Origin: Candidatus Bathyarchaeota archaeon
GTDB taxonomy: Archaea > Thermoproteota > Bathyarchaeia > 40CM-2-53-6 > FEN-987
DNA: 9,866 bases
Assembly: GCA_023247835.1 (NCBI GenBank)
Contig: JAHFFU010000023.1
Location: 1-9,866, forward strand
Reading direction: 5' to 3'
The position numbers were made by a program, and so were the translations under genes. The notes beneath the pieces were generated by a model. That model was given only the letters and a program-made list of their open reading frames with translations, was not told where the DNA came from and did no database searches. Positions 2,508 through 9,574 of the stretch are shown piece by piece. Every line of letters begins with the position of its first letter. The first letter of the stretch is position 1.

Positions 2508-3692
2508 ATGCAGCTTCAGGTAAGATTGTCGGCCGTCAAAGAGCCGGTTGTCATCCACAAAGGGCTTGACAACGTATACGTGAAAGAGAGTAGGATTTGT
2601 TTTATCGACGGGGAAGCAAGCAAACTTTTCTATCGGGGCTATAGCATCGAAGATCTCACCGAACACGCGAGCTTCGAAGAAACAGTCTACCTTCTCACAT
2701 ACGGCTGGCTACCAACGAAATCCCAGTTGAACGAATTCAAACGGCGAATCGAATCCTACCGGTCCCTCGAGCGTAACATCTTGCAACTAGTTCGCTTATT
2801 TCCAACCAAAAGCGATCCGATGGACGCTTTACGAACAGCAGTTTCAGGCCTCGGCCTTTACGACCCTCAGCCCATGACGGACAGTATCGAAACACGAATC
2901 GACGAAGCTCTCAGAATCTTAGCCAAAACGCCAACGATAATTACAGCGTTCGACAGGATCAGAAACCGGAAGGAACCTGTTCCCCCGAGACCTGGCCTAA
3001 GCCACGCAGCAGATTTCCTATACATGCTAACCGGCGAAGAACCCGATCCATACGACGCCCATGTCATGGACGTCGCCCTGATTCTTCATGCGGAACACGA
3101 AATGAACGCGTCAACTTTCTCTTGCACCGTAACGGCCTCAACTTTGGCCGATATGTATTCCATAATCACCTCCGGAATTGGAACATTGAGAGGGCCACTC
3201 CATGGTGGCGCAAACGAAGCGGCGCTGCAGACGGTTATGGAGGTGGGTGAGCCGTCTAAAGCGGAGAGTTACGTTGTCGAAGCCCTGGCCCAAAAGAAAA
3301 AGATCATGGGCTTCGGTCACCGAGTGTACAAGACTTGGGATCCTAGATACGTGATTCTCAAGAAACTTGCGGGAGAACTTGCATCTAAAAAGGGTCAGGC
3401 GAAGTTGTTTGAAACTGCCGTCGCGATTGAGACGAGCGCGCGAGAGCACCTTGCAGGATTGCCCATCTTTCCGAATGTTGACTCATACTCAGGCGTCGTC
3501 TTCCACATGTTGGGGATCCCTACGGATCTGTTCACGCCGATTTTTGCGATGAGCAGAATCGCTGGATGGACCGCGCACTCGATCGAATACCTGGAAGCTA
3601 ACAGGCTGATTCGACCTAAGGCCCTTTACGTAGGAAAAACAGGACGACCGTACATCCCGCTAGATTCTAGGCCAGGGAGAGTGGAGGATTAG
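2508..3692 (+). CDS. gltA: Citrate synthase
   Basis: Condenses acetyl-CoA with oxaloacetate to citrate at TCA cycle entry, in the cytoplasm. At 394 aa it has the short archaeal/Gram-positive-type length. Family signatures: ICFIDGEASKLFYRGYSIEDL near the N-terminus (30-50); LHAEHEMNASTF (193-204); RGPLHGGANE with catalytic H232; MGFGHRVYKTWDPR with H271; FPNVDSYSG with catalytic D325; and SRIAGWTAH with substrate-binding R350. The catalytic triad is complete. ATG at 2508 gives an N-terminus about 10 residues longer than many relatives. A TTG at 2526 is an alternative, and the TATA-like GTATAAAC at 2490-2497 would suit that shorter form. The CBS-domain gene starts 6 nt after its stop, so the two are probably co-transcribed. 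A 2-methylcitrate synthase is the main alternative; I see nothing to favour it. Confidence 0.95.
   Translation: MQLQVRLSAVKEPVVIHKGLDNVYVKESRICFIDGEASKLFYRGYSIEDLTEHASFEETVYLLTYGWLPTKSQLNEFKRRIESYRSLERNILQLVRLFPTKSDPMDALRTAVSGLGLYDPQPMTDSIETRIDEALRILAKTPTIITAFDRIRNRKEPVPPRPGLSHAADFLYMLTGEEPDPYDAHVMDVALILHAEHEMNASTFSCTVTASTLADMYSIITSGIGTLRGPLHGGANEAALQTVMEVGEPSKAESYVVEALAQKKKIMGFGHRVYKTWDPRYVILKKLAGELASKKGQAKLFETAVAIETSAREHLAGLPIFPNVDSYSGVVFHMLGIPTDLFTPIFAMSRIAGWTAHSIEYLEANRLIRPKALYVGKTGRPYIPLDSRPGRVED
3683..3687 (+). promoter_or_regulatory. Shine-Dalgarno of the CBS-domain gene
   Basis: GGAGG lies 11 nt before the ATG at 3699 and inside the last codons of citrate synthase. It supports that start and translation from a shared mRNA. 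Confidence 0.6.
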
Positions 3693-3698
3693 GCAACC

Positions 3699-4127
3699 AT
3701 GAATGTAGGAGACATCGTGCAACGGCCCCTGATCACAATCTCATCTGGCAAAACGGTACTTGATGCAGCTAGGCTCATGGTTGAAAACAACATGGGCCTC
3801 TTGGTTATCTGCGACGCCATGGACAAGACGAAACCCGCCGGGGTCATCTCGGAGAGAGATATCATAAAGACAATAGCGTCGGGCGGGAGATTGAACGCAC
3901 CAGTTGACGAAGTGAGCACCAAGCAGGTTATCACCGTAAAGGCGAGTTCAGAAGTGGCAGAGGCTGCCAAAGCGATGAACAAACACCGAATAAGGCATGT
4001 GGTCGTAGTTGACGATCAAGGGGGGCTGGTGGGTGTGGTTTCCATGCGTGACTTGGTCGGTGAGCGGGCTACTCTAACTGCAATCCTCCAATCCCATGAA
4101 AAAGAAGTCTTCATTGGTGGCGACTAA
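3699..4127 (+). CDS. Two-CBS-domain protein
   Basis: 142 aa, made almost entirely of one CBS pair (Bateman module). CBS1 is about residues 5-62: MNVGDIVQRPLITISSGKTV ... GLLVICD ... GVISERDIIK. CBS2 is about 68-125: VSTKQVITVKASSEVAEAAK ... RIRHVVVVDDQGGLVGVVSMRDLV. Both end in the typical V-[IV]-[ST]-x-RD signature that contacts adenosine ligands, so AMP, ATP, SAM or NAD(H) binding is plausible. There is no attached enzyme or DNA-binding domain. Its position 6 nt after citrate synthase, with a Shine-Dalgarno inside that gene, suggests energy-charge sensing linked to carbon metabolism; this is inference. Its stop TAA (4125-4127) overlaps the stop of the convergent hisS gene by 4 bp. Confidence 0.9.
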   Translation: MNVGDIVQRPLITISSGKTVLDAARLMVENNMGLLVICDAMDKTKPAGVISERDIIKTIASGGRLNAPVDEVSTKQVITVKASSEVAEAAKAMNKHRIRHVVVVDDQGGLVGVVSMRDLVGERATLTAILQSHEKEVFIGGD

Positions 4128-5437: not shown

Positions 5438-5477
5438 TTCTCTTCACACGTTCGTCTTCGCAGTTACGGAAACCTCT

Positions 5478-5486
5478 CCTATAATG
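5478..5486. promoter_or_regulatory. TATA-like element between hisS and the zinc-ribbon gene
   Basis: CCTATAATG on plus, CATTATAGG on minus. It is about 37 nt before the plus-strand ATG at 5519 and about 45 nt before the hisS start at 5437, acceptable for both directions. It is the best promoter candidate in the 81-nt divergent gap. Confidence 0.4.
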
Positions 5487-5518
5487 TTGTGAGTCGAAGA
5501 CTGACCGTTGAAGGTGCA

Positions 5519-6079
5519 ATGGTTTATAGCAAAGCGCGAATTCAGGCACGTGGAAATACTTTGCTTGCAAAGAGCAAGGCTCTTTGGGCCGCAACGTTGA
5601 GCGGTCTCGTTGTAGGCGGCGTGCTCGCTACGGTGTTGAGCATAGGTGATCTGCCGTTCTCGACGGCGATCGGAGCCTTGATTGGAGGTGTCGTCGCAGC
5701 ATATGTTCTCCACGGGAAGATCGGTCAGGCAGCTGCGGCCGGAGCATTAGCAGGCATTCTTGGCACACCGTTCTCCATCGGCGTCTCCTACCTCTTCCTA
5801 ATCTTCGAAGTGATACCTATCCCGTCCAGCAAGACCCCACCCCTGTCGCAGTTGCAGCTAGAAGTCGTTTCCATATTCCTAACTAATTCGGTTGCCGGTG
5901 CCGTGGGTGGAGTCTTAGCTGGCGCTGTTCGTCATCCCCCGTCAAGGGAAGGACTACCGCCACCACCGCAAGCGCCCGGAGCAGCCCCCACTCAGCCCCG
6001 ATATTGCGTACAGTGTGGTGCTCAACTGCCCTCAGGGACGCTTATCTGTCCACACTGCAATGCTCAGCAGCCGCAATAA
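5519..6079 (+). CDS. Membrane protein with C-terminal zinc ribbon (DUF5518-like membrane part)
   Basis: 186 aa from ATG 5519. Four Gly/Ala-rich membrane helices are visible: LWAATLSGLVVGGVLATVL, FSTAIGALIGGVVAAYVL, AAAAGALAGILG continuing to YLFLIFEV, and FLTNSVAGAVGGVLAGAV. This resembles the small archaeal DUF5518-type membrane proteins. A Pro-rich linker (about 145-160) leads to a zinc ribbon at the extreme C-terminus: YCVQCGAQLPSGTLICPHC, with CxxC-x10-CxxC spacing. The ribbon most likely faces the cytoplasm. An upstream GTG at 5489 would add 10 residues, but it lies only 3 nt after the best TATA-like element, whereas ATG 5519 is preceded by AAGGTG and sits at a suitable distance. It converges on the EndA-like gene with 13 nt between stops. 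Function unknown. Confidence 0.75.
   Translation: MVYSKARIQARGNTLLAKSKALWAATLSGLVVGGVLATVLSIGDLPFSTAIGALIGGVVAAYVLHGKIGQAAAAGALAGILGTPFSIGVSYLFLIFEVIPIPSSKTPPLSQLQLEVVSIFLTNSVAGAVGGVLAGAVRHPPSREGLPPPPQAPGAAPTQPRYCVQCGAQLPSGTLICPHCNAQQPQ
5568..5586 (+). repeat. Inverted repeat, 8-bp arms with 3-nt spacer
   Basis: CAAAGAGC, AAG, GCTCTTTG: a perfect 8-bp stem with a 3-nt loop, 50 nt inside the zinc-ribbon membrane protein gene (codons for AKSKALW). In RNA it would be a stable hairpin early in the message; as DNA it could be a dimer site. No role is assigned. Confidence 0.5.
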
Positions 6080-6092
6080 GCGCTCGTAAATT

Positions 6093-6689
6093 CTAGACTT
6101 TCAACGAACTCAACGTATAGTATACAACGTCCGTTCGCCGGTCAACGACTGCAAGTATCAGTTCCTTCTTCTCCCTGTCGGAGTATCGGAGCAGTTTTCC
6201 CAATTTCCTGAGGCTAGCCTCGCCGCCTTCGTAGACGATCGAGATGAGCCGCCTGAGTGGGCCTTTTCCGTAAATATCAAAATCGAAAGCCTTGGTGGAC
6301 TCACGAACTATGTACCCACGGTCCCGTAGGTCCCGGTAAACCAAGTACTTTATCCATATTTCCGGTTTGCCAACTGAAAACGTCTCTACTAGGTCTCGGA
6401 GTTCCAATTCCTTTTCGGCATTCTTGTTGAACACGCGTATCTTCTGTTTCTCTACGAGGTAGAAGGATTCGTAGGGAGAAAGCAATAATTTCCTGCCCTT
6501 GAGGTCGCCGAAGCCTCGGTCCCTCAATTCCATGAGTTCAGACTTGTACGGTATGTACACCGAACGCCTGTCGGATGTTGCGTTCCATGGAGTGAACTGT
6601 GGTTTTTCCTGAGTCTGCACTGGGGCTTGAGGCGTTGCGCTCGTGTTGTTCTCCATCAAGCGGCACTTGGCTGTCCGCTGAGACACCAT
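6093..6689 (-). CDS. endA: tRNA-splicing endonuclease EndA-like protein, probably the structural subunit
   Basis: 198 aa. EndA cuts pre-tRNA introns at bulge-helix-bulge motifs. The C-terminal domain matches the family: KYLVYRDLRDRGYIVRES at 114-131, FDFDIYGKGP at 135-144, and KKELILAVVDRRTDVVYYTL at 174-193. The catalytic triad is Tyr, His, Lys. Y140 and K174 or K175 are present, but the region after Y140 reads GKGPLRRLISIVYE, with no His and about three residues fewer than the usual GPxxxHxxxxV. The N-terminal domain (about 45-110) looks like the usual substrate-independent EndA N-domain, after a polar 30-residue leader. This suggests the non-catalytic subunit of an alpha2-beta2 enzyme, with the catalytic subunit elsewhere. 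ATG at 6656 (residue 12, MENNTSATPQ) is an alternative start and would drop a basic leader. Family call strong; loss of activity is inference. Confidence 0.85.
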   Translation of the reverse strand: MVSQRTAKCRLMENNTSATPQAPVQTQEKPQFTPWNATSDRRSVYIPYKSELMELRDRGFGDLKGRKLLLSPYESFYLVEKQKIRVFNKNAEKELELRDLVETFSVGKPEIWIKYLVYRDLRDRGYIVRESTKAFDFDIYGKGPLRRLISIVYEGGEASLRKLGKLLRYSDREKKELILAVVDRRTDVVYYTLSSLKV

Positions 6690-8808: not shown

Positions 8809-9243
8809 CTAAGACCGCCTATCTACAATTCCTTGGCTATCTTGGTACTTCCCGCTGTAAGAGTATCTTGTTTTGCTGCCAAGGTGATGCAGGACTAATT
8901 GCACGAACCTGTCATTCTTATTCATAGTGAATGGCTCGACTCCGGCGTTGAAGAGTGAGATCGTTAGTTGGCCTCGAAAGCCGGGGTCAACCAGAGCTAG
9001 GCTGGCGATTATTCCAGCGCGCGCGAGCGAGGAGCGGATATGCAGTGTCCCAGCCATGTCGTCCCCAAGCTCAACCCTCTCAAGAGTCGCCACCAAACGA
9101 TGTTCGCCGGGTGGAATGGCCAGATTGACCCCGAGACGCAGGTCGTAGCCGGCTCCATTTAGGCAGGAGCGATCGAAAGGCGTGAGAACCAGCGAGCCGT
9201 CCCGTACGCGCTTCTCAATCTCCTCACCGGACAATACCGGCAA
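8809..9243 (-). CDS. dcd: dCTP deaminase/dUTPase-family protein lacking the deaminase Glu
   Basis: 144 aa, compact; Dcd proteins are usually 155-200 aa. The missing part is between the N-terminal strand and the LRLG region. Family signatures: LSGEEIEKRV at the N-terminus; NGAGYDLRLG at 29-38; IRSSLARAGI at 69-78 (S72, R75); LALVDPGFRGQLTISLFNAG at 82-101; and the C-terminal SGKYQDSQGIVDRRS, the nucleotide-capping tail. In dCTP deaminases the segment after DPGFxG reads LTLEL with the catalytic Glu. Here that position is S96 (codon TCA). D86, aligned with the dUTPase motif 3 Asp, is kept. So a dUTPase, or a non-deaminating nucleotide binder, is more likely than a dCTP deaminase; this is inference. 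The start is TTG at 9243, supported by GGAGTGA six nt upstream. It is followed by the PRTase regulator on the same strand. Confidence 0.8.
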   Translation of the reverse strand: MPVLSGEEIEKRVRDGSLVLTPFDRSCLNGAGYDLRLGVNLAIPPGEHRLVATLERVELGDDMAGTLHIRSSLARAGIIASLALVDPGFRGQLTISLFNAGVEPFTMNKNDRFVQLVLHHLGSKTRYSYSGKYQDSQGIVDRRS

Positions 9244-9249
9244 TCGTTT

Positions 9250-9256
9250 TCACTCC
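9250..9256 (-). promoter_or_regulatory. Shine-Dalgarno fixing the TTG start of the Dcd-like gene
   Basis: The minus strand reads GGAGTGA, then 6 nt, then TTG. This is the strongest ribosome binding site in the window and the main reason for accepting a TTG start. Confidence 0.75.
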
Positions 9257-9263
9257 AGACTCA

Positions 9264-9278
9264 GCTCACACGGTGAGC
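9264..9278. promoter_or_regulatory. Operator-like inverted repeat upstream of the Dcd-like gene
   Basis: GCTCAC, ACG, GTGAGC: perfect 6-bp arms with a 3-nt spacer, 21 nt upstream of the TTG at 9243. On the minus strand it follows a weak TATA-like TACAATAC (about 9280-9287), so it would sit between TATA box and start site, a typical position for archaeal repressors. The HTH-PRTase regulator encoded downstream is a candidate binder; that is inference. Confidence 0.45.
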
Positions 9279-9327
9279 GTATTGTACCTAACAGTCTTGC
9301 CTCCCAGGAGACACACATCTTCGCTAA

Positions 9328-9337
9328 CCATATACAC
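9328..9337 (+). promoter_or_regulatory. TATA-like promoter of tRNA-Arg
   Basis: CCATATACAC is centred about 36 nt before the first base of the tRNA. Initiation about 26 nt downstream of the box would leave a 5' leader of about 10 nt for RNase P to remove. Confidence 0.5.
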
Positions 9338-9399
9338 CAATCTTGGCCTATGGCTGCGCGACATTACGGGCCCGTAGTCGAGCCAGGATTAAGACACAG

Positions 9400-9420
9400 C
9401 GGCCCAACCGGGTCGTGTAA
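9400..9420 (+). other. tRNA-Arg intron 1 (21 nt, position 29/30)
   Basis: Strict bulge-helix-bulge. Central 4-bp helix: ACAC (9394-9397) with GTGT (9415-9418). The two 3-nt bulges are AGC (9398-9400) and AAG (9419-9421), each cut after its second base. The intron's own hairpin is GGCCC (9401-9405), loop AACC, GGGTC (9410-9414) with one G-U pair. The site lies in the 5' anticodon stem, a non-canonical position. Confidence 0.85.
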
Positions 9421-9429
9421 GCCTTCGGA

Positions 9430-9444
9430 GCAGATGCGGCGAAA
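9430..9444 (+). other. tRNA-Arg intron 2 (15 nt, near position 37/38)
   Basis: Removal restores the 3' anticodon stem. The boundary slides: AGC occurs at both 9429-9431 and 9444-9446, so introns 9429-9443 through 9432-9446 give the same mature tRNA. Pairing TTCG (9424-9427) with CGAA (9440-9443) forms a 4-bp helix with a GAG bulge (9428-9430) on one side but a shorter one on the other, a relaxed motif. The helix sequesters the anticodon. Confidence 0.7.
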
Positions 9445-9504
9445 GCCTGGGATCCGGGGTTCGAATCCCCGCGGGCCCGCCAACTTCAAAGAGTCCTGCA
9501 TTGA

Positions 9505-9509
9505 TTTTT
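9505..9509 (+). terminator. Oligo-T terminator candidate after tRNA-Arg
   Basis: Five T residues 22 nt after the encoded CCA, in AT-rich DNA. Archaeal RNA polymerase can stop at such tracts without a hairpin. The tract is short, so confidence is low. Confidence 0.3.
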
Positions 9510-9574
9510 AGTAATTTGACTCCGGCTGTTTGATAGTGGTCTGACCGAACTCTAGACACTGGAACTTAATATTT

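Follow-up and report, generated by a model that had tools for sequence, protein, structure and literature searches.

The window, that is, the whole 9,866-nt stretch of DNA analysed here, carries a tRNA-Arg(UCG) gene interrupted by two introns, with an 8-nt exon between them, and a gene for a homologue of the tRNA-splicing endonuclease. Their parts and neighbouring candidate signals are as follows:

6093 to 6689, reverse strand: tRNA-splicing endonuclease homologue (tRNA_int_endo), 198 aa, beta (structural) type
9329 to 9336, forward strand: TATA-like CATATACA, about 39 to 32 nt upstream of the tRNA gene, a candidate found by eye
9368 to 9482, forward strand: tRNA-Arg(UCG) gene with two introns, encoded CCA included, identified by direct reading, ARAGORN, shuffles and orthologues
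9368 to 9399, forward strand: exon 1, tRNA positions 1 to 29 (ARAGORN; vacant 29/30 sites in relatives)
9394 to 9397, forward strand: 5′ strand of the intron-1 central helix, ACAC, positions 24 to 27, followed by the bulge AG^C
9400 to 9420, forward strand: intron 1, 21 nt, position 29/30, in the one possible phase
9415 to 9418, forward strand: 3′ strand of the intron-1 central helix, GTGT, followed by the bulge AA^G
9421 to 9428, forward strand: exon 2, the 8-nt mini-exon GCCTTCGG, positions 30 to 37, with the anticodon TCG at 9425 to 9427
9423 to 9426, forward strand: 5′ strand of the intron-2 central helix, CTTC, positions 32 to 35, followed by the bulge GG^A
9429 to 9443, forward strand: intron 2, 15 nt, canonical position 37/38, a cut at 9430 to 9444 being equivalent
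9438 to 9441, forward strand: 3′ strand of the intron-2 central helix, GGCG, followed by the bulge AA^A
9444 to 9482, forward strand: exon 3, positions 38 to 73 plus the encoded CCA (9480 to 9482)
9505 to 9509, forward strand: T5 run, a candidate terminator found by eye

With 9400-9420 and 9429-9443 removed, the exons (32, 8 and 36 nt, then CCA) formed the full cloverleaf of an archaeal tRNA-Arg(UCG), including the UCG anticodon and the conserved tertiary bases. Exon 1 contained the 5′ strand of the acceptor stem, the D arm and stem positions 27 to 29. Read directly, the acceptor stem GGGCCCG/CGGGCCC joined 9368-9374 with 9472-9478, the T arm occupied 9455-9471 and G73-CCA lay at 9479-9482; the conserved bases were U8 (9375), A14 (9381), G15 (9382), G18G19 (9386-9387) and C48 (9454). 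The spliced anticodon arm had the stem CAGGC/GCCTG and the loop CTTCGGA. Arginyl-tRNA synthetase recognizes its tRNA by the identity bases A20 and C35, and both were present, at 9388 and at 9426 (the middle of TCG). CGA codons numbered 28 among the 2,145 codons of eight ORFs counted in the window. The sequence ATATACA, resembling the TATA-like sequence of the window, was found upstream of the orthologue in the nearest relative (G001). Three open frames (3689-3982, 5444-5713 and 9182-9511) overlap better-supported genes or the tRNA and are most likely not genes.

The initial annotation had claimed that a cloverleaf with all key tertiary bases appears upon removal of both introns, and both the bases read and ARAGORN bore this out. 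When introns were disallowed, ARAGORN called no gene in the unspliced sequence or after removal of either intron alone, and it called tRNA-Arg(TCG) once both had been removed. Running ARAGORN with intron detection had been suggested as a check. When it was permitted a single intron of at most 60 nt, the form lacking both introns was still called Arg(TCG), but the unspliced gene was miscalled as Pro(CGG) and the half-spliced forms as SeC and Gly. The Pro(CGG) call would favour a reading in which the chain is cut once, at a single intron, to yield another anticodon and a different isotype. However, that call depends on a lone intron of 21 nt placed in the wrong frame, and the window allowed a single placement of the two introns with a full 5-bp anticodon stem. 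Relatives without one or both segments have plain Arg(UCG) genes, and by comparison with these vacant-site orthologues the single-intron reading appears in effect refuted; we regard it as extremely improbable.

Shuffling the 54 nt from 9396 to 9449 gave a full-stem placement of any kind in 162 of 20,000 cases, and none of the 20,000 combined a full stem with four pairs in helix 1 and three or more in helix 2. When the whole window was shuffled 200 times, the two-intron finder returned no match. We therefore consider the observation of a two-intron tRNA-Arg(UCG) gene confirmed. The introns, at 21 and 15 nt, do not resemble group I or II self-splicing introns, and the window had no Rfam match at the gathering threshold. 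Using an E-value threshold for 9300-9560 instead, Rfam gave fragments of mascRNA and cyanobacterial tmRNA; these were rejected, as they lay below their own cut-offs and reflected a resemblance to the T arm.

General annotation tools missed the gene, neither ARAGORN nor Rfam (gathering thresholds) giving any match in the intact window, as might be expected if it were a decayed and silent copy. Against decay, the spliced form had no broken pair in the acceptor, D, anticodon or T arms and kept its CCA, the splice helices were conserved with compensatory change, and the two-intron gene was the only Arg(UCG) match in G001 among the matches listed. A pseudogene is thus very unlikely.

Intron 1 fitted a bulge-helix-bulge (BHB) motif with a 4-bp helix, two 3-nt bulges and a cut after the second bulge base. 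Its phase cannot slide, and its annotation as 21 nt at 9400-9420 stands. The outer helix on the exon side, examined by eye, consisted only of G23-C31 and A21-U33 around an A22-C32 mismatch, which suggests a relaxed motif. Intron 2 was placed at 9429-9443, position 37/38, because this phase fits a BHB. Its annotated size of 15 nt was retained, and its approximate position of 9430-9444 was moved by one; the product is the same, since 9429 and 9444 are both A. Likewise, the mini-exon does carry the anticodon loop, at a length of exactly 8 nt (9421-9428) rather than about 9 nt. In the window three of the four pairs of the intron-2 helix formed, U33 standing opposite C. The register TTCG/CGAA, found in the minimum-energy fold of the window, was rejected by hand because cutting after 9445 breaks the stem.

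Both helices were conserved among relatives. The intron-1 helix was paired in 309 of 324 cells across 81 class genes, window included, these genes being related. Position 26 was paired in all 81 (G-C in 62, A-U in 18 and G-U in one), and the pair at position 24 was absent from 14. The helix thus shows compensatory G-C/A-U changes. In 2,000 permutations of the intron tails the mean was 287.6 and the maximum 297 cells, with kinship among genes uncorrected. Sliding the partners left 73, 249, 7, 7 and 155 of the 324 cells paired, the value of 249, for a slide of 2, arising because the tails alternate. For the intron-2 helix, 253 of 292 cells were paired in 73 genes, also related, against a permutation mean of 242.3 and maximum of 251 and slid values of 146-186, again uncorrected for kinship. 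Position 34 was paired in 57 of the 73 genes (U-A/U-G in 36, C-G in 15, G-C/G-U in 6) and unpaired in 16, and its partner changes along with the anticodon. U33 was unpaired in 13 of the 73 genes bearing the 37/38 intron. More than one full-stem placement existed in eight of the 55 genes of one sample, where the choice of placement scored helix pairs.

The histidyl-tRNA synthetase (HisRS) of the window was 73% identical to that of ‘archaeon RBG_16_50_20’ (L001, genome G001) and 72% identical to that of ‘Candidatus Bathyarchaeota archaeon UBA185’ (L002), the next Bathyarchaeota record following at 57%; on this basis the host is probably bathyarchaeial. By “class” we mean that of the nearest genome, G001, comprising 256 genomes, which we take to be Bathyarchaeia. 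The G001 orthologue had both introns at identical sites, with different sequences and lengths of 19 and 15 nt. The Arg(UCG) pattern gave matches in at least 144 of the 256 class genomes. Among the matches listed we read 106 rows, the rows omitted being, by eye, mostly contiguous matches over 75-76 bases. Of these 106, 50 had no intron, 26 had both, 19 had the 29/30 intron only, seven had the 37/38 intron only and four were ambiguous. Each intron was therefore found precisely absent, with all four occupancy states occurring among Arg(UCG) genes. The vacant-site genes share the exon layout of the window position by position, which fixes the exon boundaries. The two introns, the UCG anticodon and the mini-exon of the initial annotation were thus upheld by orthologues with both, one or neither intron as well as by ARAGORN. 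A single Arg(UCG) match, with two introns, was found among the matches listed in each of six genomes (G001, G005, G007, G014, G030 and G050).

Across 155 distinct Arg genes of the class, window included, 60 had both introns, 21 the 29/30 intron only, 13 the 37/38 intron only and 61 none, so that the 29/30 intron was present in 81 and the 37/38 intron in 73. Intron lengths were 11-35 nt at 29/30 and 11-26 nt at 37/38. The two-intron genes comprised 27 Arg(UCG) genes with the window, 27 Arg(CCG) and six Arg(GCG). The parsed Arg(UCU) genes had the 37/38 intron only (seven genes) or no intron (one gene). These counts are of genes, not of independent gains or losses, and the samples are biased by queries that were a two-intron gene or a pattern demanding a 37/38 intron.

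Beyond the class, the pattern for Arg(NCG) with a 37/38 intron gave matches in 93 of 398 genomes of the phylum. From 40 chosen regions outside the class, 34 were parsed, five were ambiguous and one was incomplete in the extracted coordinates. The 37/38 intron stood alone in 24 of the 34 and both introns were read in 10, eight of which had at least three helix-1 pairs. The other two readings (L322 and L331) were not counted, their intron-1 helices being weak, with 2 and 0 pairs. The 29/30 and 37/38 pair thus extends beyond Bathyarchaeia. In five outside-class Arg genes with a 37/38 intron (L300, L307, L312, L325 and L336), insertions were seen by eye near the D arm or positions 22-26; these 5′-half insertions are probably further non-canonical introns.

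The endonuclease homologue of the window kept the Tyr and Lys of the catalytic triad and lacked the catalytic His. Its nearest solved sequences were EndA (5x89_A at 2.2e-19 and 1a79_A at 2.9e-15). PF01974 genes were found in all 20 chosen relatives, with two or more in 15; the five with one gene are draft genomes, in which a single gene does not imply absence of a second. When the window protein was aligned with 30 relatives, 17 sequences proved to be of alpha type and 13, plus the window protein, of beta type. All 17 alpha-type sequences kept Tyr, His and Lys and had a loop GF/YxGKPxGxxKPK with a further Lys, the KPK of the loop aligning with the Lys of 3p1z_B. His was absent from all 13 beta-type relatives. 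The alpha subunit of G001 matched 3p1z_B at 1.1e-39 and 2cv8_A at 5.5e-35, presumably the Aeropyrum and Sulfolobus enzymes respectively, and we take the loop Lys to be the K44 that has been studied. Separate catalytic and non-catalytic single-unit subunits, the mark of an (alpha-beta)2 enzyme, were thus found in the relatives (two or more PF01974 genes in 15 of 20), as was a crenarchaeal loop with its Lys in alpha. Crenarchaeota likewise have an (alpha-beta)2 enzyme of two single-unit subunits, alpha with Tyr-His-Lys and the loop Lys, and beta without His; however, the window has the beta type only, and pairing and specificity here are predicted. Together, the window's beta subunit and the catalytic partners of its relatives point to a broad-specificity (alpha-beta)2 enzyme.

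From these comparisons of sequence, we consider it highly probable that the tRNA-Arg(UCG) gene is functional and consists of a single locus. One transcript would carry both introns (29/30 and 37/38), with a BHB or relaxed BHB at the boundaries of each. A crenarchaeal-type (alpha-beta)2 splicing endonuclease would cut both, and an RNA ligase, which we assume to be RtcB, would join the exons into a normal arginine tRNA reading CGA. Such relaxed motifs and intron-rich tRNAs are connected with the (alpha-beta)2 type in the available parts of PMC12397907 and PMC4090602, the former also tying the crenarchaeal loop to relaxed intron motifs. An excerpt of PMC12918454 reports EndA identified in near-complete archaeal genomes, with Bathyarchaeia among the archaea treated.

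We infer that the two introns are removed in succession. Stepwise removal, in either order, is likely because cutting all four sites together would free an 8-nt exon held by about two base pairs. Excerpts of PMC8450103 describe archaeal tRNA genes, some of which need one intron out before the next motif can form. To compare orders, the central helices alone were forced and ensemble energies compared in 68 two-intron genes (60 of the class and eight from outside). The median cost of the helix in the precursor was 1.62 kcal/mol for intron 1 and 7.27 kcal/mol for intron 2. After removal of intron 1 the intron-2 helix cost a median of 3.52 kcal/mol, its cost having fallen in 62 of the 68 genes; removal of intron 2 left the cost of the intron-1 helix unchanged, at 1.67 kcal/mol. 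Across relatives, therefore, modelled folding suggests that the 29/30 intron would leave first. The window copy does not support this order: against the trend, its intron-2 helix cost 6.83 kcal/mol with intron 1 and 7.46 kcal/mol without it, so that no gating is seen. In addition, the intron-1 helix was not the cheaper one in 12 of the 68 genes, and some genes carry just one of the two introns, meaning that either motif can function by itself. Independent removal, or removal of the 37/38 intron first, is consequently a serious alternative, to which we give somewhat less than an even chance in view of the medians above.

A further extension of the 29/30-first order, which we hold to be possible but rather unlikely, is that the two introns of Bathyarchaeia Arg genes form a gated pair with a fixed order. 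The 29/30 intron would tie up D-arm bases and block formation of the 37/38 motif, thereby acting as a checkpoint on maturation of the tRNA. The beta-subunit gene near the tRNA in part of the class would then couple supply of the enzyme to its substrate. In the window this gene (6093-6689, reverse strand) lies 2.7 kb from the tRNA gene (9368-9482, forward strand). A beta-type gene, or a weaker one presumed to be beta, shared a contig with a listed Arg(UCG) match in 12 of 20 genomes, counted by eye. Seven of these 12 pairs were within 6 kb, one was 18 kb apart and four were far apart. This proximity may be plain synteny.

The tri-split tRNA of Caldivirga likewise has its anticodon on a short piece of its own, which is joined to its neighbours at a BHB motif on either side. 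Three separate transcripts are involved there, in contrast to the one transcript here. Multi-intron tRNAs had been described in the initial annotation as known mainly from Thermoproteales, a view that is now outdated. According to excerpts of PMC4033280 and PMC8450103, tRNA genes of Thermoproteales (Pyrobaculum and others) have up to three introns. Like the present gene, they can combine two or more short introns of BHB type, at non-canonical as well as canonical sites, and some of these introns lie so near each other that removal of one has to precede that of the other. The present gene belongs, however, to another class, in which 29/30 and 37/38 are used as a fixed pair of sites by Arg(UCG), Arg(GCG) and Arg(CCG) genes alike. 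Multiple tRNA introns are also found in another phylum, the soil Asgard lineages Atabeyarchaeia and Freyarchaeia, in which the accessible text of PMC11291895 gives introns in 92-95% of tRNA genes, several in over half, and often non-canonical ones. Caldiarchaeum subterraneum has three tRNA genes with multiple introns (PMC3293823, in part). Its tRNA-Thr(GGU) has introns at 24/25 and 45/46, with a one-intron form in the population, but the tRNA and sites differ from ours and its mini-exon comprises more than the anticodon loop. PMC3218864, likewise available in part, is a further source on the known background of such tRNAs. Among the tRNAs listed in a portion of PMC6143359 is a low-scoring ‘Arg ACG’ of 149 nt, including an intron of 77 nt, from an uncultured archaeal clone; this is perhaps a misread multi-intron gene.

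We found no description of tRNA introns in Bathyarchaeia among the papers listed from the open-licence literature, which excludes the primary lists of Thermoproteales introns, and the exact 29/30 and 37/38 pair may already be on record for that order. The gene is real and conserved; archaeal tRNAs with two introns are already known, and no new mechanism is involved. With it, the archaea whose tRNA genes depend on multiple splicing events come to include a further class, abundant and mostly uncultured. Annotation that is blind to introns or permits one misses such genes or misassigns the amino acid (Pro in the one-intron mode of ARAGORN), and bathyarchaeial tRNA sets may therefore look incomplete. 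Because the junctions are identical in genes that have no intron, one intron or two, this natural series makes gain, loss and splicing order directly testable, including ordered removal around the 8-nt anticodon exon.

The 29/30 introns of two Arg(UCG) genes of the class (L093 and L098) were 11 nt long, near the minimum size for a bulge-helix-bulge. The Arg(GCG) gene of G001 (L277) likewise gave a reading with both introns, in which the second measures about 33 nt; this locus ends at the contig end. Near 1506 on the reverse strand, loci of G002 (L039) and G001 (L043) contained other tRNA genes with a GGGCCCG acceptor and far longer anticodon regions. These regions look like two introns, which makes it probable that some tRNAs for other amino acids also have multiple introns.
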